From IMG/VR virus record IMGVR_UViG_3300045453_000012, positions 1 to 25,782 of that record: a stretch of 25,782 nt of DNA. One strand, 5' to 3'. The stretch comes from a virus. Made by a program: the position numbers and the translations under genes. Shown here piece after piece: positions 1 to 25,664 of the stretch. Below the pieces are notes generated by a model. It searched no databases and was not told the DNA's origin. It saw only the letters and a program-made list of their open reading frames with translations. Position 1 is the first letter of the stretch; the number at the start of each line of letters is the position of its first letter.

Positions 1-797
1 CGCAGCGTCGCCCGCAGCCGCGCCCCGTCGGGCCGCTCGTCGCGCCAGAAGCGCAGCGCCAGCAGCAGCGCGGTCGCGGCGGCCCCCGCGATCTCGACGT
101 CGCTCACGAGGTTGAGCAGCCAGATCAGGCCGAGCAGCGCCGCCGTCCACGCCGCGTCGTCGACCTTCTGCGCCGTCGACACCGGCACGCCCGCCTGGCG
201 CGCCAGCCGCCAGTAGATCGCGAGGTAGAGGACGTGGATCGGCATCTGCAGCACGGCCGAGCCCAGCCCGAGCTGGTTGGGCGGCAGCCCGGCCAGGGTG
301 GCGCCGACGGTGGTGCCGATGGCGAGCGCGCCCCACGGCACCAGCGACTGGCTGTAGAGGCCGAGCAGCAGGGCATCGAGCCCGCCGATGCCGATGCGGC
401 GCAGCGCGGTGAGGGCGATGATGTAGCCGATGCCGAATCCGGTCACCGATTCGCCGAACGGCGCCAGCAGGAAGCAGACCGCCCACAGGCGGCGTGGATT
501 GGCCTCGAGCGCGCCGCTCGCGCCGGCGGCACCATCGCGGGCCTGCAGGCAGCGATGGAAGAACATGCCGGCGGCGATGATGGCGACGACGTGCCAGGAC
601 AGCCACGCGCCGGCCGCCGTCTCGCGCAGGAAGAGCGCGCCGAGGTCCGCCGGCCCGCGCGCCTCGACCAGGATGACGAAGGAGGCGAGCAGCGTCGCCG
701 CCAGGCCGGCCAGCCCCGCCACCAGGGCGCTGGCGCGGCCGGAAGCGAGCAGGCCGAGCACCAGCAGCAGCGGCAGAAGGGCAAGAAAAGTCGTCAC
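1..797 (-). CDS. L-lactate permease family transporter, 5' part, cut by window edge
   Basis: A minus-strand frame starts at a GTG (795-797) and stays open to base 1, giving about 265 residues. An in-frame TAG lies a few codons upstream, which fixes the start region. The translation is very hydrophobic, with several predicted membrane helices, beginning MTTFLALLPLLLVLGLLASG. Residues near 115 read APFGESVTGFGIGY, which matches the conserved ESVTGFG-type signature of the LctP/LldP L-lactate permease family, a set of proton-coupled inner-membrane carriers. The following LGLYSQSLVPWGALAIGTT stretch also fits. No clear Shine-Dalgarno site is visible. This is host DNA outside the element, and Arg-rich overlapping frames in the same stretch are shadows. 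Family assignment is fairly secure; the actual substrate is not. Confidence 0.72.
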   Translation of the reverse strand, partial: MTTFLALLPLLLVLGLLASGRASALVAGLAGLAATLLASFVILVEARGPADLGALFLRETAAGAWLSWHVVAIIAAGMFFHRCLQARDGAAGASGALEANPRRLWAVCFLLAPFGESVTGFGIGYIIALTALRRIGIGGLDALLLGLYSQSLVPWGALAIGTTVGATLAGLPPNQLGLGSAVLQMPIHVLYLAIYWRLARQAGVPVSTAQKVDDAAWTAALLGLIWLLNLVSDVEIAGAAATALLLALRFWRDERPDGARLRATL

Positions 798-882
798 GGG
801 CCGCGCACTCTATCGCGCGATTTCCGCGGATGGCCGCATGTTTTCTCGGGGCAGCCCCAGGCGGGCGGCGGGGACGCGGCGC

Positions 883-911
883 TTGCGCCCCCGGGGCCTT
901 TCGCCTAGAAC
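883..911 (+). promoter_or_regulatory. Promoter of the tRNA-Thr gene
   Basis: A TTGCGC box (883-888) and a TAGAAC box (906-911) are separated by exactly 17 bases and end 9 bases before the tRNA. This is a normal housekeeping sigma-factor layout. It contrasts with the element's own promoters, which lack a recognisable -35 box. Confidence 0.55.
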
Positions 912-920
912 CCGCGCCGT

Positions 921-996
921 GCCCCGATAGCTCAGCTGGTAGAGCACGTCATTCGTAATGATGGGGTCGGCGGTTCGATTCCGTCTCGGGGCACCA
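921..996 (+). tRNA. tRNA-Thr, anticodon CGT
   Basis: A full cloverleaf can be drawn. The 7-bp acceptor stem GCCCCGA (921-927) pairs with TCGGGGC (986-992). The anticodon stem CGTCA/TGATG encloses the loop TTCGTAA with anticodon CGT, which reads the ACG threonine codon. The T arm has the normal TTCGATT loop, the discriminator is A, and CCA is encoded (994-996). It is the host gene flanking the element and the probable integration target, because the integrase follows directly and tRNA 3' ends are the usual targets of P4-type integrases. Confidence 0.96.
961..996 (+). other. Putative attL core in the tRNA-Thr 3' half
   Basis: P4-type integrases usually recombine within the T-arm/3' end of a tRNA gene, leaving a duplicated 3' end at the far border. 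Here the integrase reads away from the tRNA, as expected for the left junction. I see no second copy of the tRNA 3' end in the window, so the right attachment site must lie beyond base 25782. Exact core limits cannot be set without it. Confidence 0.55.
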
Positions 997-5622: not shown

Positions 5623-5628
5623 TGCCTC

Positions 5629-6854: not shown

Positions 6855-6863
6855 ACAAAGGAA

Positions 6864-6899
6864 AAAGGCGACCAGAGGGAGGGGCTGGTCGCCTTTCTT
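6864..6899. terminator. Strong bidirectional intrinsic terminator
   Basis: AAAGGCGACCAG (6864-6875) pairs perfectly over 12 bp with CTGGTCGCCTTT (6885-6896), with loop AGGGAGGGG. The plus strand continues TTTCTT. The minus strand reads into TTTTT from the A-run at 6862-6866. It separates the coupling operon from the convergent minus-strand gene at 6942-7157. Confidence 0.9.
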
Positions 6900-6941
6900 A
6901 CGCTTTACGCTTACGCCACGCTCGGGGGAACTGGTGAACTG

Positions 6942-7157: not shown

Positions 7158-7264
7158 GCTTCCTCTTTCTCCCGCCTCTCAGTCGTGGGCGGGATTCGAT
7201 GCTGTCTTAGACCCAGCACCGTGTCCCGCGCGCGACCTACTCATGAGCAGCACTGAGCACATCA

Positions 7265-7281
7265 TACCATGGCGGATGGTA
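7265..7281. promoter_or_regulatory. Inverted repeat in the divergent intergenic region
   Basis: TACCAT (7265-7270) and ATGGTA (7276-7281) flank the spacer GGCGG. The site lies between the divergent genes at 7157 (minus) and 7321 (plus), where an operator controlling either would be expected. The 163-base gap contains nothing else I can name. Confidence 0.3.
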
Positions 7282-7320
7282 CGATTAGGGGCAGGCTCAT
7301 TCACAGTGGAGAGACCTGCT

Positions 7321-9712: not shown

Positions 9713-9784
9713 ACCTCAGTGGAGCAGAAGTAGCTCGTCGCGCTCATAACGCGAAGGTCGCGGGTGCAAATCCCGCCTGAGGAA
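9713..9784 (+). tRNA. Element-encoded initiator-like tRNA, anticodon CAT
   Basis: All four arms pair. Acceptor ACCTCAG/CTGAGGA has six pairs with an A1:A72 mismatch. The D stem GAGC/GCTC has A11:T24. The anticodon stem TCGCG/CGCGA is perfect around the loop CTCATAA with anticodon CAT. The T stem GCGGG/CCCGC encloses TGCAAAT. The 1:72 mismatch and the purine 11:pyrimidine 24 pair are hallmarks of bacterial initiator tRNA, and the sequence GTAGCTCGTCG...GCTCATAAC closely follows bacterial tRNA-fMet. Odd points: the D loop is short (AGAAGTA, one G instead of GG), T55 is G, and the three G:C anticodon-stem pairs are GCG:CGC instead of GGG:CCC. CCA is not encoded. Alternatives are a decoy or a tRNA pseudogene, but perfect stems argue against decay. 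Confidence 0.85.
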
Positions 9785-9785
9785 C

Positions 9786-11229: not shown

Positions 11230-11238
11230 TGCTACAAT
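11230..11238 (+). promoter_or_regulatory. Extended -10 promoter, leaderless geometry
   Basis: TGC-TACAAT (11230-11238) is an extended -10 element. The ATG of the next gene lies eight bases after it, so the message should start at or beside the start codon. No -35 box is visible. Confidence 0.5.
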
Positions 11239-11246
11239 ATGGCTAT

Positions 11247-11582
11247 ATGACCAAACGCACCGTGGCAGGGCTGATCTCTGCCGCTTTATTGGCCTCCCCG
11301 GTAGTTGCCCTCGCTGATTTCACCGACGTCGCCCAGCGCGCCCAGGCGCAGGCAAACAGCCTTAGCCGCGAACAGCTCGACAACCTGAATACGCGCGTTG
11401 TGAACGACGCATTCGTCACAGCGCGTATCATTGGATACGACCCGGCCGAGATCAAAGCGCTCCGGGCAGAGGTAGCGCAGTTGCGTCAGGAGAACGCCGA
11501 TCTCCGTGCGGCTTTCAATGGAATCGAAGGCACATTGAAGCTTGTTGTTTCGATGCTGACCGCGCTGCTCGCTAAGCTCTAG
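11247..11582 (+). CDS. Exported coiled-coil protein (111 aa)
   Basis: The ATG at 11247 is chosen because it lies eight bases after a TACAAT box and starts a signal peptide (MTKRTVAGLISAALLASPVV, then ALA before ADF). The mature protein is helical, with a leucine-rich coiled coil at about residues 72-92 (EIKALRAEVAQLRQENADLR) and an amphipathic or hydrophobic end (LKLVVSMLTALLAKL). There is no Shine-Dalgarno site, as expected for a leaderless message. Such proteins could be envelope components or part of a lysis system, but nothing identifies this one. It is followed after two bases by the next gene. Confidence 0.6.
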   Translation: MTKRTVAGLISAALLASPVVALADFTDVAQRAQAQANSLSREQLDNLNTRVVNDAFVTARIIGYDPAEIKALRAEVAQLRQENADLRAAFNGIEGTLKLVVSMLTALLAKL

Positions 11583-11584
11583 CC

Positions 11585-11776
11585 ATGTCGGTGTCAGATG
11601 CCCAGCCGATCGCTAGAGGGAAGATTGCAAAGGGCGAAACGGAGCGCCGTATCATCGCTGCTCTTCCGCCACGGCATCGGCTTGTGCGCATCAACTGGAA
11701 GAAGGGCATCAAGCTGCACATCGTTGATGGCTTCGGCAAGCGCTCAATCATCACGCTTTCGCGTACGGTACAATAA
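11585..11776 (+). CDS. Small basic protein of unknown function (63 aa)
   Basis: The frame runs from an ATG two bases after the preceding stop to just before the terminase genes. The protein is basic and mixed alpha/beta in appearance: ERRIIAALPPRHRLVRINW, then KGIKLHIVDGFGKRSIITLS. The order helix, strand, strand with a His in the third element faintly recalls HicA-like double-stranded-RNA-binding folds, but the key GSH motif is absent, so I do not assign it. It has no clear ribosome site and probably depends on coupling to the upstream gene. Confidence 0.5.
   Translation: MSVSDAQPIARGKIAKGETERRIIAALPPRHRLVRINWKKGIKLHIVDGFGKRSIITLSRTVQ
11769..11774 (+). promoter_or_regulatory. -10 box before the terminase genes, leaderless geometry
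   Basis: TACAAT (11769-11774) is followed by eight bases and the ATG of the small terminase gene (11783), the same spacing as at 11230-11247. No -35 box and no ribosome site are visible. Confidence 0.42.
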
Positions 11777-11782
11777 GCAAAT

Positions 11783-12409
11783 ATGGTGACGAAGCGGGCG
11801 AAGCAAGACAAGGGACAGGAGGCGGAAGCGCTGAAAGCCAAGCGCGAACTGTTCTGCCGCTACTACACCCAGAACCAAGAGCTATTTGGCAATGCCACGC
11901 TCTCGTATGCCGAGGCCTTCGACTACAAGCTCGATGAGCTGTCCCGAGAAGGCGTCTACGAGGAGATCGAAAGCGAGGATGGCACCATCGAACAGGGGAA
12001 GCTGTTAGAACCGAGCGAATACGACAAGGCCTATCACACATGTTCCGTCCTGTCGTCACGCCTGTTGAGAAACGCTGACATCCAGGCTCGCATCACCGCC
12101 CTGTTGAATGAGCTGTTGAAGGACAACATCGTAGACAGTCAGCTTGCCAAGCTCATAACGCAGGACAGCGACAACACGGCCAAGATCGCCGGCATTCGCG
12201 AATACAACAAACTCCGCGGACGCATCATCGACAAGACGCAGAACGTGGACCGTCTGCCTTTCGGTGAGACCGACTTATCAGCCGTGATCGCGGCGCTCCC
12301 GCAGGAGCGTCAAGACTACTACTATGGCGTCATCCGTGAACTTGTCGCAGAAGCCGAGCTTTCAAGAAGCGCTGGCTCGGGTCAAAGCGGCGGCACTGGG
12401 CAAGCCTGA
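11783..12409 (+). CDS. terS: Small terminase subunit (208 aa)
   Basis: The small subunit recognises phage DNA and regulates the large subunit. The sequence shows the expected features: an N-terminal basic helix, RELFCRYYTQNQELFGNATL with SYAEAF (the F-x-x-x-Y-x...N-x-T-x-A-x-x-A-type helix-turn-helix found in TerS), then LLRNADIQARITALLNEL and a long helix ending in REYNKLRGRIIDK, which is typical before the C-terminus. The gene lies directly upstream of the large terminase gene, which it overlaps. The ATG lacks a Shine-Dalgarno site and follows a TACAAT box by eight bases. Ser/Gly-rich C-terminal residues (SRSAGSGQSGGTG) overlap the next start. Confidence 0.82.
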   Translation: MVTKRAKQDKGQEAEALKAKRELFCRYYTQNQELFGNATLSYAEAFDYKLDELSREGVYEEIESEDGTIEQGKLLEPSEYDKAYHTCSVLSSRLLRNADIQARITALLNELLKDNIVDSQLAKLITQDSDNTAKIAGIREYNKLRGRIIDKTQNVDRLPFGETDLSAVIAALPQERQDYYYGVIRELVAEAELSRSAGSGQSGGTGQA

Positions 12410-13962: not shown

Positions 13963-13971
13963 TGATATCAT
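13963..13971 (+). promoter_or_regulatory. Extended -10-like element before the portal gene
   Basis: TGA-TATCAT (13963-13971) matches an extended -10 element (five of six bases) and is followed by six bases and the portal ATG (13978). It lies just after the large terminase stop codon. No -35 box is seen. Confidence 0.38.
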
Positions 13972-13977
13972 TGAGCA

Positions 13978-16140
13978 ATGGAATTTCTCGGCGTCCACAT
14001 CGGACGCGCAGCAAAAGCCGCTGAGCCGAAGCCGAAGCGCGGCTTGGAGATTGGCGACAGCGGCACCCACATTCTCGACGGTTTCATTAACGAGGAATAC
14101 AACACCGAACTCGCCGGCATCAAAGCGTTCGCCAAGTATGACGAGATGCGCAAGTCGGACTCGACGGTTCGCGCCGCCGAACTCATGGTGCGCCTGCCGA
14201 TCCAGGCAGCGGAGTGGTACGTAAAGCCCGCGAGCGAGGAAGAAGCGGATAAGCGCATTGCGGAGTTTGTGCAGGCCGCGCTCTTCGAGCTGCACGACCT
14301 CTCGTTTGAAGACTTCCTGAGACAGGCACTCCTCTCGCTGCCCTATGGCGTGATGGCGTTCGAGAAGGTCTTCACGACACGCCAAGTAGAGGGGCAGACG
14401 CGCATCGTGTGGGAACGGCTTGCTCCTCGTCTGCCGAGCTCAATTCAGAAGTGGGCTATCGGCGACGCGAAGCTCGGCATCACGCAGCTCCGCTCAGACG
14501 GTAAGGTGGTCGAAATCCCGATGGAGAAGCTAATCGTGTTCGTGCATGAGCGCGAAGGCGACAACTGGAACGGCACCTCGATGTTCCGAGCCGCCTACAA
14601 GCACTGGTTCATGAAGAACGTGTTCTACAAGATCGACGCCATTGCGTTCGAGCGTCAAGGTCTTGGCATTCCCGATGGTCAGTTGCCCGAGGGCTATAGC
14701 GAGCGCGACCGCGCGAAGATGGAGTCGATCCTGAAGAACATGCGGGCGAATTCGCAGGCGTATCTCATCCGCCCCAAGGACTACGAGATTGCCTTCATGG
14801 ACATGAAGGCAAACACGACGCGCGACCCGCAGAACTCCATCAACCACCATGACAGGCAAATCATGAAAGCGGTGCTCGCCCAGTTTCTCGAGCTGGGCGC
14901 TGCCTCACAGGGCGCAAGCGGCAGCCGCGCCGTGTCGGAAGATCACTCGCGACTCTTCCTCCAGGCTGTTGAGGCCGAAGCCCGAGCGTTTGCCACCGCC
15001 GTCAACAAGCAACTCATCAAGCAGCTCGTGGATCTCAATTTCAACAACGTGGAGAAGTACCCGCACCTCGACTTCGAAGGCATTACGAAGGAGGACGTTG
15101 CCGAGCTTTCCGAGACCTACGCAAACCTCATCAAGGCCGGAGGCATGACGCCGCAGGATGCTGACGAGGCGGCTTTCCGCGAGAAGATGGGTCTGCCCGA
15201 GCTGGACGAGAGCGGTGTCCGGGAGAAGCCTGCCAATGACAATGAACTGCCCGACGATGAGAGACAGGAAGCCAGGGAGCCGAGGCTAAAAAAAAACTTC
15301 TCGGAGCCGCCTAAGCCGTTCCGCAAGCTGACGTTTGCCGAGCAGAAGGTCAACTTTCAAGCACTGAACGATAAGATGGACGAGCTGGAGGCCCAGTTCG
15401 ACCAGGTCACGAAGAAGCTCCTGCACGAAGCGCGCGACACCTACATGGCCGCGCTCACGCAAGCTGCCCATGCGGGCGATACCAAGGCCATCAAGGAGGC
15501 GACGCTCAAAGTCCAGTCCGACTATGCTCGGATCATTAAGGGGGCGATCAAGTCGGCGTTTGAATACGGGAAGAACAATGCAGCCAAGGAGATCGGCGTG
15601 GATGCACCGGCCAACCCGGCCGAGATGCTCCGGCAGATCGACATCCAATCAGATGCCATCGCGGACGCTCAGATTGCTCGGATCACGACGGATAGCAAGA
15701 ACGCCTATGTGCAAACCCTCAACAAGGGACTCTCGCTCACTGCCGCTCTTGGCGCGGCGGATGCTGCGGCAGCCGCTGCCATCGACCAGCTCACGAGCGA
15801 CGCAAGCGCCATCCTAGTCGCGGGCTACATCAACCATGGCCGCGATACTGTGTTCGAGAAGAGTGCAAAGGACATCTATGCGCTGCAGCGGTCAGAAATT
15901 CTCGACGCGCGCACCTGCCCCTACTGCCTGTCGGTAGATGCTCGTGTGATCGAAAGGGACGACCCATTCGGCCGCAACACCATCTTCCACTCAAACTGCC
16001 GAGGCATCTGGGTCGCCATTCTCCAGGACGAGGCGGAGAAGCCGAAGATCGGCGGGATTCCGCAGTCTGTCCGCGATAGATTCGGAGACACAGTGAACGA
16101 TCTCATCCAGCCGAAGAAGCCGACGCCCAAGAAGCGTTAG
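13978..16140 (+). CDS. Portal protein fused to a MuF-type minor head protein (720 aa)
   Basis: Residues 1-430 are a DUF935 portal (Mu gp29 family): RAAELMVRLPIQAAEWYVKP, SLPYGVMAFEKVF, NWNGTSMFRAAYKHWFMKNV and IRPKDYEIAFMDMKANTT. Residues about 445-720 end in a MuF/SPP1 gp7 domain with the zinc-type signature RTCPYC (C647, C650) and FHSNCRG (H671, C674). The portal is the head vertex through which DNA enters; MuF proteins are low-copy head proteins. In Mu they are separate genes, so this is a fusion. A nine-A run lies exactly at the junction. The ATG has no ribosome site and follows an extended -10 element. The stop overlaps that of the convergent gene. Confidence 0.92.
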   Translation: MEFLGVHIGRAAKAAEPKPKRGLEIGDSGTHILDGFINEEYNTELAGIKAFAKYDEMRKSDSTVRAAELMVRLPIQAAEWYVKPASEEEADKRIAEFVQAALFELHDLSFEDFLRQALLSLPYGVMAFEKVFTTRQVEGQTRIVWERLAPRLPSSIQKWAIGDAKLGITQLRSDGKVVEIPMEKLIVFVHEREGDNWNGTSMFRAAYKHWFMKNVFYKIDAIAFERQGLGIPDGQLPEGYSERDRAKMESILKNMRANSQAYLIRPKDYEIAFMDMKANTTRDPQNSINHHDRQIMKAVLAQFLELGAASQGASGSRAVSEDHSRLFLQAVEAEARAFATAVNKQLIKQLVDLNFNNVEKYPHLDFEGITKEDVAELSETYANLIKAGGMTPQDADEAAFREKMGLPELDESGVREKPANDNELPDDERQEAREPRLKKNFSEPPKPFRKLTFAEQKVNFQALNDKMDELEAQFDQVTKKLLHEARDTYMAALTQAAHAGDTKAIKEATLKVQSDYARIIKGAIKSAFEYGKNNAAKEIGVDAPANPAEMLRQIDIQSDAIADAQIARITTDSKNAYVQTLNKGLSLTAALGAADAAAAAAIDQLTSDASAILVAGYINHGRDTVFEKSAKDIYALQRSEILDARTCPYCLSVDARVIERDDPFGRNTIFHSNCRGIWVAILQDEAEKPKIGGIPQSVRDRFGDTVNDLIQPKKPTPKKR
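15288..15296 (+). promoter_or_regulatory. A9 slippage run at the portal/MuF junction
   Basis: In frame the run reads CTA AAA AAA AAC TTC. A -1 slip leads after five more sense codons to TAA (15312-15314); a +1 slip leads to TGA (15329-15331). Either would yield a portal of about 445-450 residues without the MuF domain. Runs of eight or nine A are known to promote transcriptional slippage, and A AAA AAC is a recognised ribosomal slippery heptamer. Confidence 0.5.
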
Positions 16141-16934
16141 TCCGCGATGTTTCGCAATTCCATTGCTTTACTTAGAATCTGCTTGTGGTCAGCGACCACA
16201 GCATTGTTGTCAAGATCCTCGACATGATCCAACAAGCGTTTCTCGAAATCCGGGTATGAAAAGCCTCTCAGAGCTTCGTTGTACTTCTCAACGAGCCACG
16301 CGCGCTTCTCGCGCAATTGATCTGTTCTTGGCATCGCCGCAATCGTCGTCTGCAACGCCAACCAGTATTCAGGCCAAAGGTAAAATTGCTTCCGCGGCTG
16401 AAAATAGTCCACGTAGAAAAGTCCGTCTTTGTCCAACGAGAGTAGTCCATTGAATTCAGACAATGCAGAGAGTTCAGGCAGCTCCGGGTCAAGAATGACC
16501 CTGGGTAGCTTGGCCATCTTGCTTTCCAATTGATACGCTCGATTCATTGCAGGTCCGAATAGTAACGTACCGTCGTGGATAAGCGGCCCTTTCGTAATCC
16601 CGCCGCGTAGCAGTAATCCAGAACTTAGAAAGTGATCAATCGTAGAAAGAACCGCGATCGCGAAGAAATTAAGCGTGAATTGCCCTTTGCCGGCGTCACA
16701 GCTAACGACAAACGAATCGGAGAATTGCGTGAACATTAGGTTCTTTAGCGCATGCAGCTCATGCAGGTCCTCTAAAGACCACAAAATGGCGTCGCCAATC
16801 CTCTTCTGGATCTGTGGATCTCCTCGATCCTTCTGGTGTCCTGAGGCCTCAACCAAGGCACCAAACCCCAAGACATCGATGAAGACGATCACGCGCTCGG
16901 CGTAGTCTGTCGGAGCCTTCTTTCCCTCTTCCAT
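16137..16934 (-). CDS. Class III nucleotide-cyclase-like protein, inserted cargo gene (265 aa)
   Basis: The ATG at 16934 has GGGGGAG just upstream. The order of motifs follows class III nucleotide cyclases: VIVFIDVLGFGAL with D20 (as F-x-DI-x-GF), FSDSFVV with D73 (second metal Asp), RGGITKG at 110-116 (as R-x-GI-x-x-G) and FGPAMNRAYQLES at 126-138, which aligns with GDAVNLAARLES. N131 matches the transition-state Asn, but the conserved Arg is Gln135, so activity may be altered. PRVIL follows. The gene is AT-richer than its neighbours, lies opposite to them between portal and protease genes, and shares overlapping stops with the portal gene. This suggests later insertion. Family members without proven activity exist, so cyclase function is not certain. 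Confidence 0.66.
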   Translation of the reverse strand: MEEGKKAPTDYAERVIVFIDVLGFGALVEASGHQKDRGDPQIQKRIGDAILWSLEDLHELHALKNLMFTQFSDSFVVSCDAGKGQFTLNFFAIAVLSTIDHFLSSGLLLRGGITKGPLIHDGTLLFGPAMNRAYQLESKMAKLPRVILDPELPELSALSEFNGLLSLDKDGLFYVDYFQPRKQFYLWPEYWLALQTTIAAMPRTDQLREKRAWLVEKYNEALRGFSYPDFEKRLLDHVEDLDNNAVVADHKQILSKAMELRNIAD

Positions 16935-17006
16935 TGCTCCCCCGGCGAAGTGCTGCTTATCCCCACGCGCACCGGGCACGGCGACATATAGCACAATCAT
17001 GGGCTG

Positions 17007-17012
17007 TATGAT
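17007..17012 (+). promoter_or_regulatory. -10 box before the protease/scaffold gene
   Basis: TATGAT (17007-17012, five of six consensus bases) is followed by six bases and the ATG at 17019. It restarts transcription of the head operon after the inserted minus-strand gene. The opposite strand of the same gap carries TTATCA and TATATG at 18-base spacing, a possible promoter for the cyclase-like gene. Confidence 0.4.
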
Positions 17013-17018
17013 AAACAC

Positions 17019-18236
17019 ATGAGCAAGGAACGTGATAGCAAAAAGCGAATCGCGTTTCCTATTCAGCTCTTCGACGAAGGGTCGGCTTCAGTCGAGATAC
17101 CGAGTGAAATCCATGTCGTCCCCGTGGGGGAGTGGGACCACTCGCTATACGGCCACATGAAGATCGACGCGGCCGCCATCCAGCAGTTCATCGCGAACTA
17201 CGAGGCAGGCATCCGCAAGGATCTCCGTGTCACGGCCGGCCACGACAACGGCATGAGCGGAGGCGAGCTGCCCGCTCTCGGCTGGTTCAAGAAGCTCTAC
17301 GCCAAGGAGGATGGCCTCTGGGCGCAGATGGAGTGGACCCCGGATGGAGAGGAGGCGATCAAGAACCGATCGTACAAGTACTTCTCCCCCGAAATGTTCC
17401 TTAACGGCGACCTGGCGTACGAGGACCCGGAGACGCACAACATCTACAACTACGTGTTGGATGGCGGCGCGCTCACCAACTTCCCGTATTTCAAGGAGCT
17501 GAATGCGGTCGTGAAGTTCAGCGATCCGCATCTTATGAATAAATTCAATAACGATATGCAATTGAAGGACATCCTCGCCAAGAAGCCGTCAGAGCTTTCT
17601 GAAGCGGAAAAGACCTTCCTCCGTGAGCACAAGGGCGAGCTGTCGTCGGAGCAGACCGCCACGTTTAGCAGCGTGTTCGAGGAACCGGCACCGGTCGAAA
17701 CGGTTGATGAGCCGGAACAGCCCAAGGCGCCGGAGACACCGGAAGAGCCGAAGGTCAGCGCCTCGGAGAAGAACAAAGTCGTCGTTTCCTCGGCGGAGTT
17801 TTCTGCTCTCCAGCAGATGGCGAACAAGGGCGCTGAAGCCCTGAAGAAGATCGAGGCGACCGAGCGCAAGGCGAAGATCGACAAACTCGTCTTCTCGGCC
17901 ACCAACACGGCCGGCCGCTTCCTTCCGAAGCACCAGAGCGCTCTCGAAGCGTTCATGGTCCAGCTATCTGAAAAGCAGCAGGGGGAATTCGTCGCTCTCA
18001 TCGGTGACATGCCGACCGCCAACACCAAGCAGCTCTTTGACGAGCTCGGTGACGGCGGCAAGAACCTCAACAGTGCCGCAGGCATCTACAGCGAGATCAA
18101 GAACCTCGCGGACGCGAAGGTCACGGCATCGCAGGGCAAGCTCTCCTTCTCGGATGCGCTCCGCCAGGTCTACAGCGAGAAGCCGGAGTTGAAGACTTCT
18201 TATGAGTCGGCGCTCGCCGCGGAGGGCAAGAATTAG
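17019..18236 (+). CDS. Mu gpI-like head maturation protease/scaffold (405 aa)
   Basis: The N-terminal 170 residues match the Mu-like prophage I protease: VPVGEWDHSLYGHMKID, DLRVTAGHDNGMSGGELPAL, GWFKKLYAKEDGLWAQMEWT and SYKYFSPEMFLNGD. This domain cleaves the scaffold and itself in the prohead. The C-terminal half is acidic, with a Glu/Pro-rich linker at about residues 225-250 (EEPAPVETVDEPEQPKAPET) and helical scaffold-like segments, as in Mu where gpI contains the scaffold gpZ. Position directly before the decoration and capsid genes fits. The ATG has no ribosome site and follows TATGAT by six bases. Capsid proteins probably are its substrates. Confidence 0.88.
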   Translation: MSKERDSKKRIAFPIQLFDEGSASVEIPSEIHVVPVGEWDHSLYGHMKIDAAAIQQFIANYEAGIRKDLRVTAGHDNGMSGGELPALGWFKKLYAKEDGLWAQMEWTPDGEEAIKNRSYKYFSPEMFLNGDLAYEDPETHNIYNYVLDGGALTNFPYFKELNAVVKFSDPHLMNKFNNDMQLKDILAKKPSELSEAEKTFLREHKGELSSEQTATFSSVFEEPAPVETVDEPEQPKAPETPEEPKVSASEKNKVVVSSAEFSALQQMANKGAEALKKIEATERKAKIDKLVFSATNTAGRFLPKHQSALEAFMVQLSEKQQGEFVALIGDMPTANTKQLFDELGDGGKNLNSAAGIYSEIKNLADAKVTASQGKLSFSDALRQVYSEKPELKTSYESALAAEGKN

Positions 18237-18256
18237 AACGTAATCTCTCAACATCT

Positions 18257-18637
18257 ATGAGCACAGAAAACATCGCGCTCGTCCGTTCCAAGGAAGCTGG
18301 AGAAGCAATGACGGACAAGCAGCACTACATCGTCCAGCTCACCGCGGCTGGTCTCATCGAAGTGGCGGAAGCCGCCACGGATCTCATCGTGGGTGTCCTT
18401 CAGAACACTCCGGCCGCAGGCGAACAGGCAACGTACGCTTTCGGCGGCGTAGCCAAGGTCAAGGCGGGCGGCACCATTGCCGTTGGCGCGTGGGTCACCT
18501 CGGACAGCAACGGCAAGGCCGTAGCGACGACCACGGACGGCGACATCGTGATTGGCCGATATGTCGGCACCGCGGCTGCGGCAGACGGCGATCTCATCGA
18601 AGTGCAGCTTGGTATTCAGCACCTCTACATCGCGTAG
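18257..18637 (+). CDS. Capsid decoration protein, DUF2190-like (126 aa)
   Basis: The sequence is a small beta-rich, Gly/Ala-rich protein: IVQLTAAGLIEVAEAATDLI, VGVLQNTPAAGEQATYAFGG, VAKVKAGGTIAVGAWVTSD and IVIGRYVGTAAAADGDLIEV. This pattern is typical of DUF2190/head-decoration proteins that sit on the capsid surface, and the gene lies between protease and major capsid genes, where they normally occur. There is no Shine-Dalgarno site: the 20 bases before ATG are TAATCTCTCAACATCT-like, with T at -1. Good confidence on role. Confidence 0.8.
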   Translation: MSTENIALVRSKEAGEAMTDKQHYIVQLTAAGLIEVAEAATDLIVGVLQNTPAAGEQATYAFGGVAKVKAGGTIAVGAWVTSDSNGKAVATTTDGDIVIGRYVGTAAAADGDLIEVQLGIQHLYIA

Positions 18638-18661
18638 TCTTATCCATTCATCCCAATTCTT

Positions 18662-19588
18662 ATGTCAAACCGTTACCAAGGCACTGATCCGATCCTCACA
18701 GACGTGTCGCTCGGGTACAAGAATTCTGCCTACATTGCCGACCTTCTGCTTCCCACGCTGAGCGTGAAGCACCAGAGCGGCAAGCACTTCGTCTACGACA
18801 AGGGCATGTTCCGCTCGGAAGATGCCAAGCGCGGTCCGGGTGCTCGTTCCAAGGAGGTCACGCACAACATCAGCACGGGGCTTACGTACTTCTGCGAGGA
18901 TCACGCCCTCAAGGAATTCGTCGCTGATGAAGACGTGGACAACGCACCGGCAGGTGTGGACCCGTACGTCGATGCCACGGAGAACGTGACGGAAAAGCTC
19001 ATCGTCTCCAAGGAGATCGAAGCCGCGTCTATTCTGCTCAACACCAGCACCATTACCCAGAACACGACGCTCTCGGGTACCAGCCAGTGGTCGGACCCGA
19101 ACTCCGATCCGGTTGCGGCGGTTCGCACCGCCAAGCAGACGGTCCGCGACAGCATCATGATCGACCCGAACACCCTCATGCTTTCGAAGAAGGTGTTCGA
19201 CAAGCTCGTGGATCACCCGGCTATCGTCGAGCGCGTCAAGTACTCGCAGCTCGGGGTGCTCAACACCGATCTTCTCGCTCGCTTCTTTGACGTCGAGCGC
19301 GTCATCATCGGCGCGGCTCAAAAGAACGGCTCTGTCGAAGGCCAGTCGGATTCCATGTCCGACATCTGGGGCAAGGATGCGCTTCTCGCCTACATCAACC
19401 CGCGCCTCGGGCAGAAGACGGTCTCTCTCGGCGTCACCTACCAGTGGAAGTCCCGTACCACGGAGCGCCTCAACGGCACCGACGAGCGCGATCGCCGCGG
19501 CCAGTTCATCCGCGTCGGCGATCACTACTACGATCAGGAATTGATCGCGGCAGGCGCGGCCTACCTCTTCAAGGCGGCAGTCGCTTAA
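18662..19588 (+). CDS. Major capsid protein (308 aa)
   Basis: Length, position after protease and decoration genes, and composition identify the major capsid protein. The N-terminal region DPILTDVSLGYKNSAYIADL with LPTLSV is like the start of many HK97-fold capsid proteins in this group. The middle (RGPGARSKEVTHNISTGLTY, then EDHALKEFVADED) and the C-terminal segment (ALLAYINPRLGQKTVSLGVT, ending in RVGDHYYDQELIAAGAAYLF) fit the A-domain and E-loop layout. I cannot prove the fold without a profile search. No ribosome site: CATCCCAATTCTT precedes ATG. A 15-bp hairpin follows the stop. Confidence 0.85.
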   Translation: MSNRYQGTDPILTDVSLGYKNSAYIADLLLPTLSVKHQSGKHFVYDKGMFRSEDAKRGPGARSKEVTHNISTGLTYFCEDHALKEFVADEDVDNAPAGVDPYVDATENVTEKLIVSKEIEAASILLNTSTITQNTTLSGTSQWSDPNSDPVAAVRTAKQTVRDSIMIDPNTLMLSKKVFDKLVDHPAIVERVKYSQLGVLNTDLLARFFDVERVIIGAAQKNGSVEGQSDSMSDIWGKDALLAYINPRLGQKTVSLGVTYQWKSRTTERLNGTDERDRRGQFIRVGDHYYDQELIAAGAAYLFKAAVA

Positions 19589-19594
19589 CAGATC

Positions 19595-19630
19595 GCTACC
19601 CAGCCCGGCCTCGCTGCCGGGCTGGGTAGC
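19595..19630 (+). repeat. 15-bp perfect hairpin after the major capsid gene
   Basis: GCTACCCAGCCCGGC (19595-19609) pairs perfectly with GCCGGGCTGGGTAGC (19616-19630), loop CTCGCT. No T-run follows, so it is more likely an mRNA 3' stabiliser or partial attenuator than a full terminator. It would favour high capsid mRNA over the downstream genes. Confidence 0.75.
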
Positions 19631-19644
19631 CCAACCTCATATCT

Positions 19645-20181
19645 ATGGCAGAAATCTTCAATAAGGACGTGCCGATCCAGGCCCCCGATTTCAAGGTCAA
19701 GAACCGCACGGGCATCACGCGCACCAAGCGTACCGGGGGTGTGCTGCGCGAGATGGTGGTCGCTGAGTTCAATCCCTCGGCCAATACCGGGGAGCGCACG
19801 GTTGCCGCGCATGGTCTTGGCGTCTTCATTCCGGCTAAGGCGGTCGTCACCCGCGTATGGATCGACGTGGTAACCACGTTTACCTCGGCAGGCGCAGATG
19901 CTGGTACCATCGCGCTCCACCTTCAGTCTGCAAACGACGTGGTATCCGCCATCGCCATTTCGGACGCGTCGAATGTCTGGGACGCCGGCATCCACGGCTC
20001 CAAGATCGGCTTCCCGGCACTTGCCGACACCGGCACGCAGACCGCCCTCGAAGTGGCGGCGCTCTTCGCAGGTTCTATGCTCAAGATGACGGCAGAGCGC
20101 GAGCTTACCGCCACGGTCGCCACCCAGGCGCTCACGGCGGGCAAGGCCAACATCTACGTTGAGTACGTTATCAGCGACTAA
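19645..20181 (+). CDS. Putative virion protein after the capsid gene (178 aa)
   Basis: I do not recognise a named family. The protein begins MAEIFNKDVPIQAPDFKVKN and is mostly predicted beta strand and loops (GVFIPAKAVVTRVWIDVVTT, TIALHLQSANDVVSAIAISD), ending in a strand NIYVEYVISD. Composition and position suggest a beta-sandwich structural protein, perhaps a second decoration or head-fibre base protein. ATG is preceded by AACCTCATATCT without a ribosome site. Tight spacing on both sides keeps it in the capsid operon. Confidence 0.6.
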   Translation: MAEIFNKDVPIQAPDFKVKNRTGITRTKRTGGVLREMVVAEFNPSANTGERTVAAHGLGVFIPAKAVVTRVWIDVVTTFTSAGADAGTIALHLQSANDVVSAIAISDASNVWDAGIHGSKIGFPALADTGTQTALEVAALFAGSMLKMTAERELTATVATQALTAGKANIYVEYVISD

Positions 20182-20193
20182 TCCCTCAATCGT

Positions 20194-20631
20194 ATGGAGT
20201 ACTACGTTCTCAGTAACATTGACCACGACGGCAAACGGTATGTTCGCGGTGATCGGATAGTGGTTTCGGACACCTTTGCCGCGGCGCTCATCGCTGCGGG
20301 GGCTATTCAGACGGAGCCTCTAGAGGCTGTCGAATCACTCCGGCAGCCCTCAGAACCGGCTCAGGAGGCCGATTCTGTCACGGTAGGAGGGAAGGCGCAG
20401 GGGACAGGAGAACCCTCCCTGGACGGCACCCAGGACCGCACAGGCGCGGATACGGCGGCCGACGTCACCCCAAAGGTAGATGAGCCGGAAGCACCGGCTC
20501 CCGTCGCCGCCCGTCCCGGCGTTCTAAGCAAACTCTTTGGCGGAGACGCGTCCAAGGATACCGCCGCTACTTCCACCGCGGTCACCCCGGAGGGGCAGGC
20601 GGCACCGGCCGACCCGTCAGCCAACCTCTAG
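20194..20631 (+). CDS. Small phage protein with N-terminal 'hydrated loop' domain and Ala/Pro-rich tail (145 aa)
   Basis: Residues 1-50 read MEYYVLSNIDHDGKRYVRGD, then IVVSDTFAAALIAAGAI, a domain often seen in small phage proteins encoded between capsid and tail genes, with the pattern hydrophobic strand, HDGK-x-Y-x-x-GD and an L-I-x-x-G-A-I end. The remainder is low-complexity, rich in Ala, Pro, Glu and Thr, and probably disordered. Function unknown. No ribosome site: CCCTCAATCGT precedes ATG. Confidence 0.58.
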   Translation: MEYYVLSNIDHDGKRYVRGDRIVVSDTFAAALIAAGAIQTEPLEAVESLRQPSEPAQEADSVTVGGKAQGTGEPSLDGTQDRTGADTAADVTPKVDEPEAPAPVAARPGVLSKLFGGDASKDTAATSTAVTPEGQAAPADPSANL

Positions 20632-20634
20632 CGT

Positions 20635-21066
20635 ATGATATCGACCGTACGCACACTCAGAGCATCGGCAGCCCAGGCGGCGGCGGGGACTGTCACGGGA
20701 AGTGCGGTAGCGTTGGGACGAGCCTTCCGAGAGCTGATCGTCCAGCTCGACGTGTCCGCAGCGGCTAGCGATGCCGGTGACACGCTCGATGTCTACATCG
20801 ACACTTCGTTCGATGGCGGCACTACGTTTGTCAACATCGGCCACTTCACGCAGGTCCTCGGCAACGGCGGCGCAAAGAAGTTCGTCATGTCCTTCTGCAA
20901 CGCCAATCCGGGTACGAGTGCCGTGGTCGCGGTAGGCAGCGACGCCGCCGCCGGGGCTACACGGCAGATCGGCTTCGGCGATCAAATCCGCTACCGCTCC
21001 GTCATGGTGGACGGCGATGCAAACGGCTCCTTTACGCACGCAATAACGGCCATGCTCAAAGAATAG
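20635..21066 (+). CDS. Beta-sandwich virion protein (143 aa)
   Basis: The core DTLDVYIDTSFDGGTTFVNI, then GHFTQV, is a pattern I recall from phage structural proteins with a jelly-roll or fibronectin-like sheet: a strand, DTSxDGG turn and a following strand. The end (IRYRSVMVDGDANGSFTHAI) fits the same fold. The gene starts three bases after the previous stop with GTATG and no ribosome site. Head or tail connector location cannot be told from sequence. Confidence 0.58.
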   Translation: MISTVRTLRASAAQAAAGTVTGSAVALGRAFRELIVQLDVSAAASDAGDTLDVYIDTSFDGGTTFVNIGHFTQVLGNGGAKKFVMSFCNANPGTSAVVAVGSDAAAGATRQIGFGDQIRYRSVMVDGDANGSFTHAITAMLKE

Positions 21067-21068
21067 CT

Positions 21069-21359
21069 ATGATCTCTATCAAGATTCAGGCAGCCGACAA
21101 GATCACCGTCCAGGACACAGGCGAGCAGTTGCTCTCCGTCCTCTTCGAGATCCGCTCCGGCGAGAAAGTATTGAAGACCGGCCGCCACGGGTTCCCTCTC
21201 GGCATCACTGTCCCTGAGCTCGAGGCCGAGATGCAAGCCATCCTCGCTGCCTTCACGAAGGATACCGATACAGCGGAAGCCAAGGCCGAGTTCGAGGCAA
21301 TGGACGCCCAGGCAGACGAGACCATCGCTGAGATGGTCGGAATAGAGATTACCAATTAG
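21069..21359 (+). CDS. Small acidic virion-operon protein (96 aa)
   Basis: The start lies two bases after the preceding stop. The first half is strand-rich (MISIKIQAADKITVQDTGEQ, LLSVLFEIRSGEKVL) and the second half is a long acidic helix (LEAEMQAILAAFTKDTDTAE, AKAEFEAMDAQADETIAEMV). No known family. The gene order places it among head or neck components. No ribosome site is visible. Confidence 0.55.
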   Translation: MISIKIQAADKITVQDTGEQLLSVLFEIRSGEKVLKTGRHGFPLGITVPELEAEMQAILAAFTKDTDTAEAKAEFEAMDAQADETIAEMVGIEITN

Positions 21360-21370
21360 TCCGAAAACCT

Positions 21371-22000
21371 ATGTTTCAGAAAGTTCAAATGGCAATGGCA
21401 GGAGCGATCCCGCTCGATGCCAACGTCGAATTCGTGCTGCGCGATGCCCAGGGCAACGTGAAGCCGATCTTTCAGGAAAACCGCCTTTGCACAGCGCTGC
21501 TGAAGAGGGGCTACCTGTCGCCCCTGTGGATCAATTGGCGCATAGCGCCACTTATTGCTCCGCTTCTCGGCTACTGGGCGACAGCAAAGGACGGCCGAAA
21601 TCTCATCACAAACGCGGGTAAAGCCGCGGCTGCCTCGCGTCTCAATGGCGCTGGCGGTGCCGCTGCATTCACCGCCATCGGTATTGGTACCGGCACGACG
21701 GCCGCTAATGCGGCAGACACGGCGCTTGAATCTGGCAAGGCTGCTGATGGTACGGCGGATTCAGGTGTCCATGCCCTCGCTACGGCCTCCGTCACTGCGT
21801 CGCGCGTCACCACGACCGTCACGAACGATACGGCCCAGCTCGTTGGTACGGTGACGTTCACGGGTACCGTTGCTGTTACCGAGTCCGGCGTCTTCAACGC
21901 TGATACGAACGGCACAATGATCGCTCGTCAGGTCTTCTCTGCGATCAACGTCGTGGCGACCGACACGCTGCAGCTCACCTGGAAGATCAAGGCTGCGTAG
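21371..22000 (+). CDS. Putative phage surface or fibre-type protein (209 aa)
   Basis: The N-terminal part (EFVLRDAQGNVKPIFQENRL) and the central TNAGKAAAASRLNGAGGAA, FTAIGIGTGTTAANAADTAL pattern are typical of phage surface proteins that begin fibre-like assemblies and contain the segment IGIGTGTTA. The C-terminal half is repetitive beta sheet (TASRVTTTVTNDTAQLVGTV and TFTGTVAVTESGVFNADTNG). I infer a head- or tail-attached structural protein. No ribosome site: CCGAAAACCT precedes ATG. It precedes the LamG protein and may form its base. Confidence 0.6.
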   Translation: MFQKVQMAMAGAIPLDANVEFVLRDAQGNVKPIFQENRLCTALLKRGYLSPLWINWRIAPLIAPLLGYWATAKDGRNLITNAGKAAAASRLNGAGGAAAFTAIGIGTGTTAANAADTALESGKAADGTADSGVHALATASVTASRVTTTVTNDTAQLVGTVTFTGTVAVTESGVFNADTNGTMIARQVFSAINVVATDTLQLTWKIKAA

Positions 22001-22051
22001 CGCCCTTGGGTCTTGTTTCGGCTCCTCACGGGGAGCCGCCCACACCACCTT

Positions 22052-24304
22052 ATGGCGCAGACACATTCTCTCGATCTCGAAGCAGGAAGCTCGCAGTACG
22101 CGTACATCAACGACGCTGCTGCGTTCGATCTCGGGTCCCATTCCATTGAGGCATGGGTGCGGCTTGAGAGCCTCCCGTCCGGAGGCAACTTCTCAATAGT
22201 CCAGAAGTACGTCTCCTCTGGCAATCAGCGCTCCTATGCCTTCTACATCACCGACGACGGAGGGACGCTGAAACTTGCTCACACTGTCTCTGGGGACGGC
22301 ACAGCAAACGCGAGTATCCTCGGCACCTTCCCGTTCCTTACAGGCGTCTGCTACCACGTCGCAGTCACGTATGCGTCGGGTACGGGAGCAACCGTTCTCT
22401 ACGTCAACGGTCGCGTCGTCGGCAGCGGCAACAACACACAGACTTCCGTATTCAACAGCACCGCACCGCTTCAGGTCGGTGCAGGGCAGGGAACGTCGTC
22501 ACCGGACAGCTTCTTTGATGGCCTCATTAAGGATGTGCGTCTCTTCAACGACGTACGTTCTGCATCCGAAGTTGCCGCAGATGCTCACACTGAGGATGTC
22601 TCAGATGCGAACCTCGTCGCCGAGTGGAACTTCAACAACTCCTACTCGGATAGCTCCGGCAACGGCCACACACTGACGGCGAGTGGGTCGCCGACCTTCT
22701 CGACGACCGTACCATGGACGGCGCCGACCGACGTAAGTGGAAGCACTCCCCTTACCACTAACCTCGTCTCCTACTACGAGATGGAGGAGGCGAGCGGCAC
22801 TCGCGCCGACAGTCATGGCACCAATGATCTTACGGACAACAACACCGTGGGAAGCGCCACTGGAAAAATCAGTAACGCTGCGGACTTTGAAGCGGCAAAC
22901 TCCGAATACCTGTCGATAGCGGACGCTTCGCAGACTGGCTTGGACTTCACGACAGCGTTCACAATCTCTGCCTGGATAAATCTCGAATCCGAACCAGCAG
23001 GAGCGAACTACTTCCGCATAGTGAGCAAGGGAAATACAGGTGCGGCAGAGAACAAGCAATACGCGCTTCTGGTTGGTAACTCCGACACGCTTGCTCTACA
23101 GGTCTCGGAAGATGGCACTGCCTTCACGCTCGTGGATACCGCTTTCGCTCCGTCTCTCTCGGCGTGGTACCACATCGTCGTTACTTGGGATGGGGGACAG
23201 AACAAGGCCACATTCTATGTCAACGGCGTACAGCAGGGTGCTGACAAGGCACCTGGCGTTACTGACATCCCTAACGGAAATCGCGCATTTCATATTGGCG
23301 CTTCGGATGATGCCGGAACTCCCAGTCAGTTCTTCGACGGTCTCATCGACGAAGTAGCCATCTATAGCCGCGCCCTTCATTACGGCGAGATCCTCGACCT
23401 CTATAACGCAGGCGCCGGCATCCCATACGCGGCCATCAACGAGTACGTGCTTACGCTGGATGAAACGGTCACGCTCACTGACACCATCGCCAAAGGACCG
23501 GGACGGCTGCTCGCTGAGACGATCGCGCTCACCGACGACCTTCTTCGCTCACTGGCGAAGAGCTGCGCCGAGGTCGTCACCTATACGGACACGTTCGCGC
23601 GCGCGATTGGAAGAGCGTTCGCCGATACCGTCACGCACACCGATATCCTTGCGAAGGGCACCGCGAGGTCGATCCTTGACACTGTGACCCTCACTGACAC
23701 GACGACCACGGTCACCGGCCATAACTACACCGCAAACGAGACAGTCACTCTCTCCGACACGTTGTTGCGACAAGCAAGTCGAATACTCGACGAAGCAATC
23801 ACCTTTTCCGACACTATGGCGCGCGCAACAACCCGCGCACTCTCGGAGACCGTCATTCTCACCGACAATCTATTGGCCTCGATGGGCCGCCAGCTTTCAG
23901 AAGCCGTGACGTTGACCGACACTATGATGAGACAGATCGCGCACGATCTGGCTGAGAGCATCACCTTCCACGACACGGTAACGCGGGCGGTATCTCGGGT
24001 GTTTTCCGAGACAATCGCCTACAGCGATGCGCTCATGCGATCGACCGGCCGCATCTTGGTTGAGACTGCCACGGTGTCCGACGTTCTGATCCGTCAAAGC
24101 ACGCGTGCTCTCATGGAAAGCCTATCGCTCATGGATACCATCGCCGCCGTACGCGCCCGTTTCCGGACGTTCACGGACACGGTGACCCTCACGGATACGT
24201 TCGCCTATCGCATCCTCACAAGGATGAAGAAGGGTATCGCGCTGCTGACGACGAGCACGAAGAAGACCGTGTTAGAATCGAAGGACGATCCCATCATTCT
24301 ATGA
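22052..24304 (+). CDS. Fibre-like protein: two LamG domains plus fourteen 18-residue repeats (750 aa)
   Basis: The ATG at 22052 begins the first LamG/concanavalin-A-like domain; the TTG at 22013 is unlikely. Domain 1 spans about residues 5-200 (SHSIEAWVRLESLPSGGNF, YHVAVTYASGTGATVLYVNG, FFDGLIKDVRLFNDVRSASE). Domain 2 spans about 230-465 (TISAWINLESEP, WYHIVVTWDGGQNKATFYVN, FFDGLIDEVAIYSRALHYGE). Such domains bind sugars on cell surfaces. Residues 471-726 hold fourteen tandem repeats of consensus E-T-V-T-L-T-D-T-x-x-R. The stop overlaps the next start (ATGA). Position among head genes suggests a head fibre or long neck fibre. No ribosome site within 15 bases. Confidence 0.85.
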   Translation: MAQTHSLDLEAGSSQYAYINDAAAFDLGSHSIEAWVRLESLPSGGNFSIVQKYVSSGNQRSYAFYITDDGGTLKLAHTVSGDGTANASILGTFPFLTGVCYHVAVTYASGTGATVLYVNGRVVGSGNNTQTSVFNSTAPLQVGAGQGTSSPDSFFDGLIKDVRLFNDVRSASEVAADAHTEDVSDANLVAEWNFNNSYSDSSGNGHTLTASGSPTFSTTVPWTAPTDVSGSTPLTTNLVSYYEMEEASGTRADSHGTNDLTDNNTVGSATGKISNAADFEAANSEYLSIADASQTGLDFTTAFTISAWINLESEPAGANYFRIVSKGNTGAAENKQYALLVGNSDTLALQVSEDGTAFTLVDTAFAPSLSAWYHIVVTWDGGQNKATFYVNGVQQGADKAPGVTDIPNGNRAFHIGASDDAGTPSQFFDGLIDEVAIYSRALHYGEILDLYNAGAGIPYAAINEYVLTLDETVTLTDTIAKGPGRLLAETIALTDDLLRSLAKSCAEVVTYTDTFARAIGRAFADTVTHTDILAKGTARSILDTVTLTDTTTTVTGHNYTANETVTLSDTLLRQASRILDEAITFSDTMARATTRALSETVILTDNLLASMGRQLSEAVTLTDTMMRQIAHDLAESITFHDTVTRAVSRVFSETIAYSDALMRSTGRILVETATVSDVLIRQSTRALMESLSLMDTIAAVRARFRTFTDTVTLTDTFAYRILTRMKKGIALLTTSTKKTVLESKDDPIIL
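23462..24229 (+). repeat. Fourteen tandem repeats (54 bp, coding 18 residues each)
   Basis: Twelve units are 18 codons and two are 20 codons, 256 codons exactly. The unit is [ED]-x-[VI]-[TA]-x-[TSH]-D-x-x-x-R-x-x-x-R-x-[LF]-x, for example ETVTLSDTLLRQASRILD. The DNA copies are diverged, so the unit is conserved at protein level, not as recent DNA duplication. This probably forms a long regular fibre or coiled shaft. Confidence 0.88.
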
Positions 24305-25197
24305 AGACTTTGCTTGCTGTTACTGAAGATTTCATCAAACGAGAGCGCGGATGTCTTAGAGACGCGGCGTCGGCAGGATCAAACGTAGCCATTCCGGTGG
24401 ACAGCGCCCAGGGCGTTGCGGCCGGCGACTACCTGGTGGTCGGCTTTGAAGGAAACGAGCTTGCCGAGATGTGTTTGGTCACGGACGTAACCAACACCAC
24501 GATCACAGTCGGAACGTTGAAATTCAATCACGTCGAGGGGGAGCCGTTCGTCGTCTACCGGTACAATAAGCGAAAGTTTTACGGCGCGACGAGTGCGGCC
24601 GGGAGCTACACCGAGCTTACTGCCGATGGTTCGCCCGCGGACATCTCCGTTGACGATCCGCAGGGCACGCTACTCGAGTACTCCGGCAGCACGTACACCT
24701 ACTTCAAGGCGACCTACTACAACAGCACGACGACCGAAGAGAGCGACATCGACGAAGCCGATGCCGTCTACGGCGATGAGAGCACGCGATATGCCTCCGT
24801 CTATGCGATCAGAAAGCACGCGGGGTTGGCTGGCAATCCACGCTATTCGGATCTTCGCATCGAGACCAAGCGAAAGCAGGCCGAGAACGAAATCAACAGC
24901 GTGCTCGCAGCCAAGTACGTCCTGCCTTTGGCAGAGGTACCGCCGCTCCTGTCCAACATCTGCGAGCTGCTAGCAGCCGGTTACATCGACTACGAGGAGT
25001 TCGGCAAGGACGGTGAGGGCGTGAAATGGCTGGGTGAGGGACGGGCGCTCCTCAAGACGATACAGAAGGGGACGCAGCTCTTGATAGGTGCGGACGGTAC
25101 CGAGCTGACACGTAATACGAAGGTGGGCGTACTCGACGGATACCCCAATAACGAAGACACCGACGAGGCACAGTTTTCGATGAATGACCGCTTCTAG
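24301..25197 (+). CDS. Head-tail connector with Mu gp36-like C-terminus (298 aa)
   Basis: Residues 1-100 are a beta domain (SNVAIPVDSAQGVAAGDYLV, then MCLVTDVTNTTITVGTLKFN) with a middle strand-rich segment. The C-terminal third (YSDLRIETKRKQAENEINSV, LAAKYVLPLAEVPPLLSNIC, ELLAAGYIDYEEF) matches the DUF1320/Mu gp36 family of neck proteins that join head and tail. DUF1320 proteins are usually about 140 residues, so this one carries an extra N-terminal domain. The ATG overlaps the previous stop and follows ATCATTCT. Confidence 0.75.
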   Translation: MKTLLAVTEDFIKRERGCLRDAASAGSNVAIPVDSAQGVAAGDYLVVGFEGNELAEMCLVTDVTNTTITVGTLKFNHVEGEPFVVYRYNKRKFYGATSAAGSYTELTADGSPADISVDDPQGTLLEYSGSTYTYFKATYYNSTTTEESDIDEADAVYGDESTRYASVYAIRKHAGLAGNPRYSDLRIETKRKQAENEINSVLAAKYVLPLAEVPPLLSNICELLAAGYIDYEEFGKDGEGVKWLGEGRALLKTIQKGTQLLIGADGTELTRNTKVGVLDGYPNNEDTDEAQFSMNDRF

Positions 25198-25202
25198 TAT
25201 GT

Positions 25203-25664
25203 ATGCAAGGCTTCCAGCTTCAGTGGGAGATCGAAGGCGAACGCCAATTGTCCCGTGTGCTTCTCGGGATGAGTTCCAAACTGACCGACTACACTCCCCC
25301 GTTCAGGGACTCCGCGAACTATCTTACGGGCCTGTTCTCCCGCGACGTGTTCTCTACCCAAGGCGCGGTGATTGGCGAGCGCTGGCAGCGCCTATCGCCT
25401 TACACGGTCGCGCAGAAGGCGCGGAGAGGTCATCCGTCAACGCCGCTTGTGGGCACGGGTGCCATGCAGCGAAGCTTTCAGAGTATCGTTTCGACAGACC
25501 AAGCGGTCATCTACAACACGGCCGCCTACTTCAAATATCACCAGTCAAACAAGCAGCCGCGCACAAAGCTGCCGCGCCGCGTAATGATGAGGATCCACGA
25601 CGGGCAGCGCGAGCAGATCGTCCGATACTTTCAGCAGTACATCCGCGAGTCGCTTTCTAGCTAG
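25203..25664 (+). CDS. Phage virion morphogenesis / tail completion protein (153 aa)
   Basis: The sequence has the hallmark of the P2 gpS / Mu gpG-type morphogenesis family: TPLVGTGAMQRSF in the middle, then YFKYHQSNKQPRTKLPRRVM, where the family has HQ-G-x...PxR. Such proteins complete the tail or the head-tail joint. Length is typical. Start 25203 is one of two closely overlapping ATGs (ATGTATG); the other is out of frame. It follows the gp36-like gene by five bases. No ribosome site. Confidence 0.78.
   Translation: MQGFQLQWEIEGERQLSRVLLGMSSKLTDYTPPFRDSANYLTGLFSRDVFSTQGAVIGERWQRLSPYTVAQKARRGHPSTPLVGTGAMQRSFQSIVSTDQAVIYNTAAYFKYHQSNKQPRTKLPRRVMMRIHDGQREQIVRYFQQYIRESLSS

Follow-up and report, generated by a model that had tools for sequence, protein, structure and literature searches.

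Most virion genes of a lineage of phages integrated in, or linked to, alphaproteobacteria start without a Shine-Dalgarno (SD) sequence and carry a T directly before the ATG, and this T(-1) is the sole conserved base of their leaders. A T that is kept in front of ATG where no ribosome-binding site is present points to an alternative start signal to the ribosome. The window examined here is the whole of the virus contig IMGVR_UViG_3300045453_000012 (25,782 bases), in which ten consecutive genes have such starts.

Ten starts without a Shine-Dalgarno sequence

As the sequence-only reading had claimed, all ten starts from 18257 to 25203 open a reading frame and have T at -1 (10/10), and at 10/10 there is no 4-base match to AAGGAGGTGA at -18 to -4. 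A purine-rich complement of the anti-SD 5-12 nt upstream, the mark of SD-led genes, occurs at 0/10 of these starts and at 5% of 141 genes of relatives, and the mark of leaderless genes, a -10 hexamer at a distance of 6-7 nt from the start codon, is likewise missing from the ten. T precedes 15.7% of the 351 plus-strand ATGs in the window, so that ten out of ten would arise by chance with a probability of 8.9e-9. The 20 bases upstream of the ten starts hold a mean of 2.8 G against 5.7 expected. For the last gene, homologs favour the start at 25203 over that at 25184. The starts are as follows.

18237..18259, plus strand: cement/scaffold gene 18257, SD-less leader, T(-1) and ATG; T(-1) in 14/14 orthologs, AT-rich records included
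18638..18664, plus strand: major capsid gene 18662, SD-less leader with its last 20 bases G-free, T(-1) and ATG; T(-1) in 15/15 orthologs, AT-rich records included
19589..19647, plus strand: leader of gene 19645, a hairpin, then CCCAACCTCATATCT, then ATG; T(-1) in 13/14 orthologs
20182..20196, plus strand: gene 20194, SD-less leader, T(-1) and ATG; T(-1) in 12/13 orthologs
20632..20637, plus strand: gene 20635, CGT and ATG, 3 nt past the preceding stop; 5/5 orthologs have T(-1), all with a gap of 3
21067..21071, plus strand: gene 21069, CT and ATG, 2 nt past the upstream stop
21360..21373, plus strand: gene 21371, SD-less leader, T(-1) and ATG; T(-1) in 5/5 orthologs
22001..22054, plus strand: leader of gene 22052, a hairpin, T(-1) and ATG; T(-1) in 5/5 orthologs
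24282..24303, plus strand: gene 24301 (Gp36-like), SD-less, T(-1), start codon overlapping the preceding stop (ATGA); 9/12 orthologs have T(-1)
25198..25205, plus strand: gene 25203 (tail completion/neck), start with T(-1); T(-1) in 9/10 orthologs

The observation of SD-less starts with T(-1) is confirmed, and it extends wider than first described. The ten had been called head genes, but 22052 encodes a laminin-G-type protein and 24301 and 25203 encode connector or neck proteins, and the trait reaches beyond head genes. The contrast drawn with the left side stands for the five genes named there, which have strong SDs (-6.4 to -10.8 kcal/mol), but not for the left half as a whole, which is mixed, with no SD at 5690, 8281, 11247, 11585 and 11783.

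Two features within this gene cluster deserve mention. A strong hairpin (19595-19630, about -35 kcal/mol including flanks) lies in the gap between the capsid gene and gene 19645; it is predicted at the same place in 14/14 relatives examined, with a different sequence and without a U-run. The laminin-G-type protein (22052-24304) is large, stands among head genes with no assigned role, and consists of short degenerate repeats in its C-terminal half.

The right part of the contig encodes a probable small terminase (11783, assigned by position) and a large terminase, which has no Pfam match and is named from the gene order and from its conserved place beside the portal gene; further genes there encode portal, protease, cement, capsid and connector proteins. 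A search of 50,697 phage records gave no relative of the large terminase, and the best capsid match among them is about 31-35% identical. Between portal and protease lies a minus-strand gene (16137-17000) without a family match, and in other relatives this gap holds different minus-strand genes, or none. The left arm (2754-7953) has plasmid-like genes beside the integrase within a tailed-phage provirus, namely a TrwB-like ATPase, a DnaG-type zinc ribbon and a gene for which the ortholog in a relative has a Replic_Relax match.

The first kilobase of the contig has a GC content of 73% and is host sequence.

1..996, strand not assigned: host flank with a lactate-permease-like gene (minus strand) and tRNA-Thr(CGT), the site of integration

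The flank gene, named L-lactate-permease-like from its sequence, has a homologue in 59/75 genomes of one alphaproteobacterial family, and the same tRNA-Thr adjoins this homologue at 7/7 loci examined. As the pair recurs in the host family, the element is a provirus at this tRNA-Thr. The partial 16S of one member of the family shares 90-91% identity with the rRNA of Azospirillum and Skermanella, so that the host is very probably an alphaproteobacterium; a related contig, L031, sits in a metagenome-assembled genome named Rhodospirillales.

Conservation of T(-1) in relatives and its absence from the host

I took the conserved virion genes without a -10 hexamer at their start from 12 records of 55-62% GC and refined the starts by ortholog alignments that were blind to the leader sequence; of the records used in this study, most are fragments. 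T(-1) is present in 123/141 of these genes and the start codon is ATG in 140/141, while an SD of at least 4 bases is found in 5%, compared with 22% at random positions. The genes were called with a simple script, not Prodigal, so that some starts are wrong and the T(-1) figures are lowered. Pairwise identity between orthologs is 0.85 at -1 and 0.31-0.43 across -2 to -20; these sequences share descent and are not phylogenetically independent, and the near-random neighbouring positions serve as the control. In four contigs added afterwards (L202, L204, L206, L207), T(-1) was counted by hand from a table in 27/31 genes predicted to be of this class.

The host could be responsible for the pattern, or the base composition, and in the clade's three AT-rich contigs T does stand before any ATG at a frequency of 0.28-0.32. 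In the GC-rich phages, however, T precedes any ATG in 19% and class starts in 87%, and genes of the same phages on the left side and the minus strand with an SD of at least 5 bases have T(-1) in only 12-14%. The sequence-only reading had proposed that the same context in host genes would make it a host trait. Three genomes of related alphaproteobacteria, two from the host family and all of them relatives of the true host rather than the host itself, have T(-1) in 22/250 well-defined starts (9%), alike with and without SD, when starts are restricted to those near an upstream stop with no competing ATG; under the same filter the phages have it in 130/176 (p 1e-45). A first host estimate of 2-4.5% was dropped, because the called starts carried codon periodicity. 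A host trait is thereby rejected, and an explanation by host or base composition is extremely improbable.

The capsid tree has a supported clade (100/99) of 17 sequences, all of them SD-less with T(-1), whose contigs span 33% to 64% GC. Most relatives outside the clade have SDs, as do the majority of distant homologs. The trait may predate the capsid clade, since some AT-rich neighbours are SD-poor (L114-L117 and L120 have few SDs or none) and some lean towards T at -1 (L116, L117, L110, L112). That SD-less AT-rich relatives branch near the clade would also suit a functionless relic of an SD-less ancestral host or phage, but the other leader positions have been randomised among orthologs and the T kept, which needs continuing selection, and I regard a relic as very improbable. 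In G004, G485, G487 and G488 the trait is also present in tail genes and in right-arm replication or recombination genes, the latter with RecT-, SSB- and Cas4-like labels read from their sequences. SDs are commoner among the left-side integrase and plasmid-like genes. A split into early and late classes was not upheld, as the right-arm replication genes carry T(-1) too.

The starts of this class lie in weakly folded RNA. The unpaired probability near the start is 0.53, compared with 0.45 at internal ATGs (p 2e-6), and both marks of non-SD leadered genes, an open structure near the AUG and no SD, are thus found. I looked for a depletion of TATG inside genes and found none, so that selection against internal TATG is rejected and the tetramer by itself is not a start signal. 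This suggests that U(-1) acts only jointly with an open leader or with some other feature.

The same result bears on the idea that RNA is cleaved right after the T (U^AUG), with a nuclease that would cut the polycistronic mRNA before each AUG and release leaderless messages. Such cleavage would leave the same sequence trace as a role of U(-1) in initiation, and it would account for the lone conserved base, for the absence of SD and for the T-independence of leaderless starts made by promoters. However, TATG is common and not depleted within genes, so that the cutter would need extra specificity, and no lineage-wide nuclease was recognised among the proteins run against profiles. Cleavage therefore seems unlikely.

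A second, leaderless-type class of starts

In addition to what the sequence-only reading described, four genes of the window (11247, 11783, 13978 and 17019) have starts of a leaderless type, with a hexamer close to the ATG.

11233..11249, plus strand: gene 11247, TACAAT 8 nt before ATG, read from the sequence
11769..11785, plus strand: gene 11783 (probable small terminase), TACAAT 8 nt before ATG, read from the sequence
13966..13980, plus strand: portal gene 13978, putative -10 hexamer TATCAT, 6-nt spacer and ATG; in 13/14 orthologs
17007..17021, plus strand: protease gene 17019, putative -10 hexamer TATGAT, 6-nt spacer and ATG; hexamer in 12/13 orthologs, mostly at spacing 6

Portal and protease genes have a TATNAT-like hexamer 6 nt (sometimes 8) before the start in nearly all relatives, and among late genes in the GC-rich records the hexamer stands 6 nt (n=31) or 8 nt (n=9) from the start, with other distances almost absent. 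At a spacing of 6, transcription is expected to start at the A of the ATG, and portal, protease and some tail genes consequently appear to be leaderless, as predicted from the hexamer position. The base at -1 is then C in 16, T in 13, A in 2 and G in 1, whereas 8/11 starts with a spacing of 8, which should give a leader of two bases, have T there. As T is not enriched over C at spacing 6, T(-1) is tied to leadered starts, which fits a base that acts in the mRNA. The tail family c28 is an exception, in which the spacing-6 promoter and the T co-occur.

Promoter-type starts in the same phages raise the question of whether TATG is itself a transcription signal, as its core is shared with the TATG late promoters of phiKZ. 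In phiKZ, however, transcription starts at the G of TATG and a multisubunit polymerase of the phage reads the motif (PMC4666361), while here, in phages of about 45 kb, the tetramer is found where coding genes have their start codons; a promoter of the phiKZ kind is rejected, as the geometry differs. No multisubunit RNA polymerase was recognised among the phage proteins run against Pfam and no further promoter element is conserved, which leaves a transcription signal highly improbable.

Recognition of the start codon

U at -1 is known to be able to pair with A37 of the initiator tRNA and lengthen the codon-anticodon contact. An extended codon-anticodon interaction of U(-1) with A37 was reportedly described by Esposito et al. 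in 2003 (cited in PMC9841429). The phages share with it the U at -1 (10/10 in the window, 123/141 in relatives) and an initiator tRNA with A37, the pairing here being presumed; that interaction is known from engineered or single cases, whereas here it would concern the virion genes of a phage lineage as a whole. The initiator tRNA loop is CUCAUAA, with A37, in G145, G447 and G001 (Pseudomonadota genomes, two of them from the host family), and no initiator tRNA was found in G433, an incomplete genome. In the host-family genome with a readable 16S end, the anti-SD is intact.

I consider it somewhat more probable than its negation that initiation is SD-independent, that it takes place on a leader poor in G and weakly folded, and that U(-1) strengthens recognition of the AUG, probably by pairing with A37. 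The host ribosome would bind the open AUG region without use of the anti-SD, and U(-1), in the mRNA track beside the P site, would pair with A37 of fMet-tRNA and so make a four-base start signal, UAUG. Genes that open a transcription unit, namely portal, protease and some tail genes, instead appear to be leaderless, with the -10 setting +1 at the A of the AUG and U(-1) unneeded. Maintenance and lysogeny genes of these phages (integrase, TrwB-like ATPase, primase-like) more often retain an SD. The absence of local structure by itself permits SD-independent translation (PMC3121790), and in the alphaproteobacterium Caulobacter leaderless and non-SD mRNAs are translated as well as SD mRNAs (PMC4117421). 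Pairing of U(-1) with A37, which the sequence-only reading had brought forward for head genes, too narrow a group, is partly supported. It would explain the one conserved base most simply, and it agrees with the A37 of the initiator tRNAs, with T alone being conserved and with T being unneeded at a -10 of spacing 6. Against it, genes of the host relatives, even those without SD, do not favour U(-1), which is hard to square with a general benefit; the non-independence of the phage counts, the undepleted internal TATG and the overlap in c28 also weigh against it.

Alternatively, downstream genes may be driven by termination-reinitiation coupling, with U(-1) merely aiding the arriving ribosome. 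A total of 108/145 T(-1) genes lie at most 30 nt from an upstream stop, and reinitiation does not require an SD (PMC2268962). However, gene 19645 keeps its T in 13/14 although it lies 54-64 nt from the upstream stop behind a strong hairpin, while reinitiation in E. coli is at background by 40 nt (PMC2268962), and ordinary operons are equally tight without T(-1). Coupling is rather unlikely as the explanation, but as most starts are within 30 nt of a stop, it may contribute at starts near one.

It is improbable, though conceivable, that a phage-encoded or phage-induced factor makes host ribosomes prefer UAUG and leaderless starts in the lytic cycle; if so, absence of SD and U(-1) would define a phage-specific class of translation that bypasses anti-SD-dependent initiation. 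A phage-encoded S21 system is rejected, as bS21 (PF01165) is absent from 14 phage records, some of them fragments, while control genomes gave matches. A phage initiator tRNA as the cause was rejected as well: a scan of records of the relatives gave no initiator-like copy, and contigs without this capsid gene also have tRNAs with an identical anticodon stem. The tRNA-Met(CAT) of the window (9713-9785) is itself initiator-like, with the same D-arm ends, a CUCAUAA loop and an unpaired 1:72, but it has an altered anticodon stem and, at T-loop position 55, G instead of the usual T. Its 3' end overlaps the ATG of a VRR-NUC gene at 9786, and its acceptor strand is the source of a GAGG SD-like site for that gene.

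One of the closest known systems is non-SD leadered initiation (PMC3121790; Caulobacter, PMC4117421), with which the starts described here share the absence of SD, weak folding near the AUG and an alphaproteobacterial host; those surveys found no conserved motif, whereas here the -1 base is near-fixed and starts are almost only AUG. Leaderless mRNAs are matched by the portal, protease and some tail genes, whose -10 places +1 at the A of ATG, but not by the ten genes, which have leaders and no such hexamer. The B3-like and Xiamenvirus phages Rashabar and RDJL Phi 2 have capsid proteins about 31-32% identical, but they have SDs at 84-90% of genes and T(-1) at 1/29 and 5/24 ATG starts.

How starts are found on SD-less mRNAs is an open question, for which the surveys consulted give no motif or diffuse biases only. 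In these phages selection on a single leader base is visible, and the same genomes have leaderless-type and SD starts as built-in controls, so that the lineage is a clean natural system for testing the effect of U(-1). The T(-1) context would also aid gene calling in uncultured phages.
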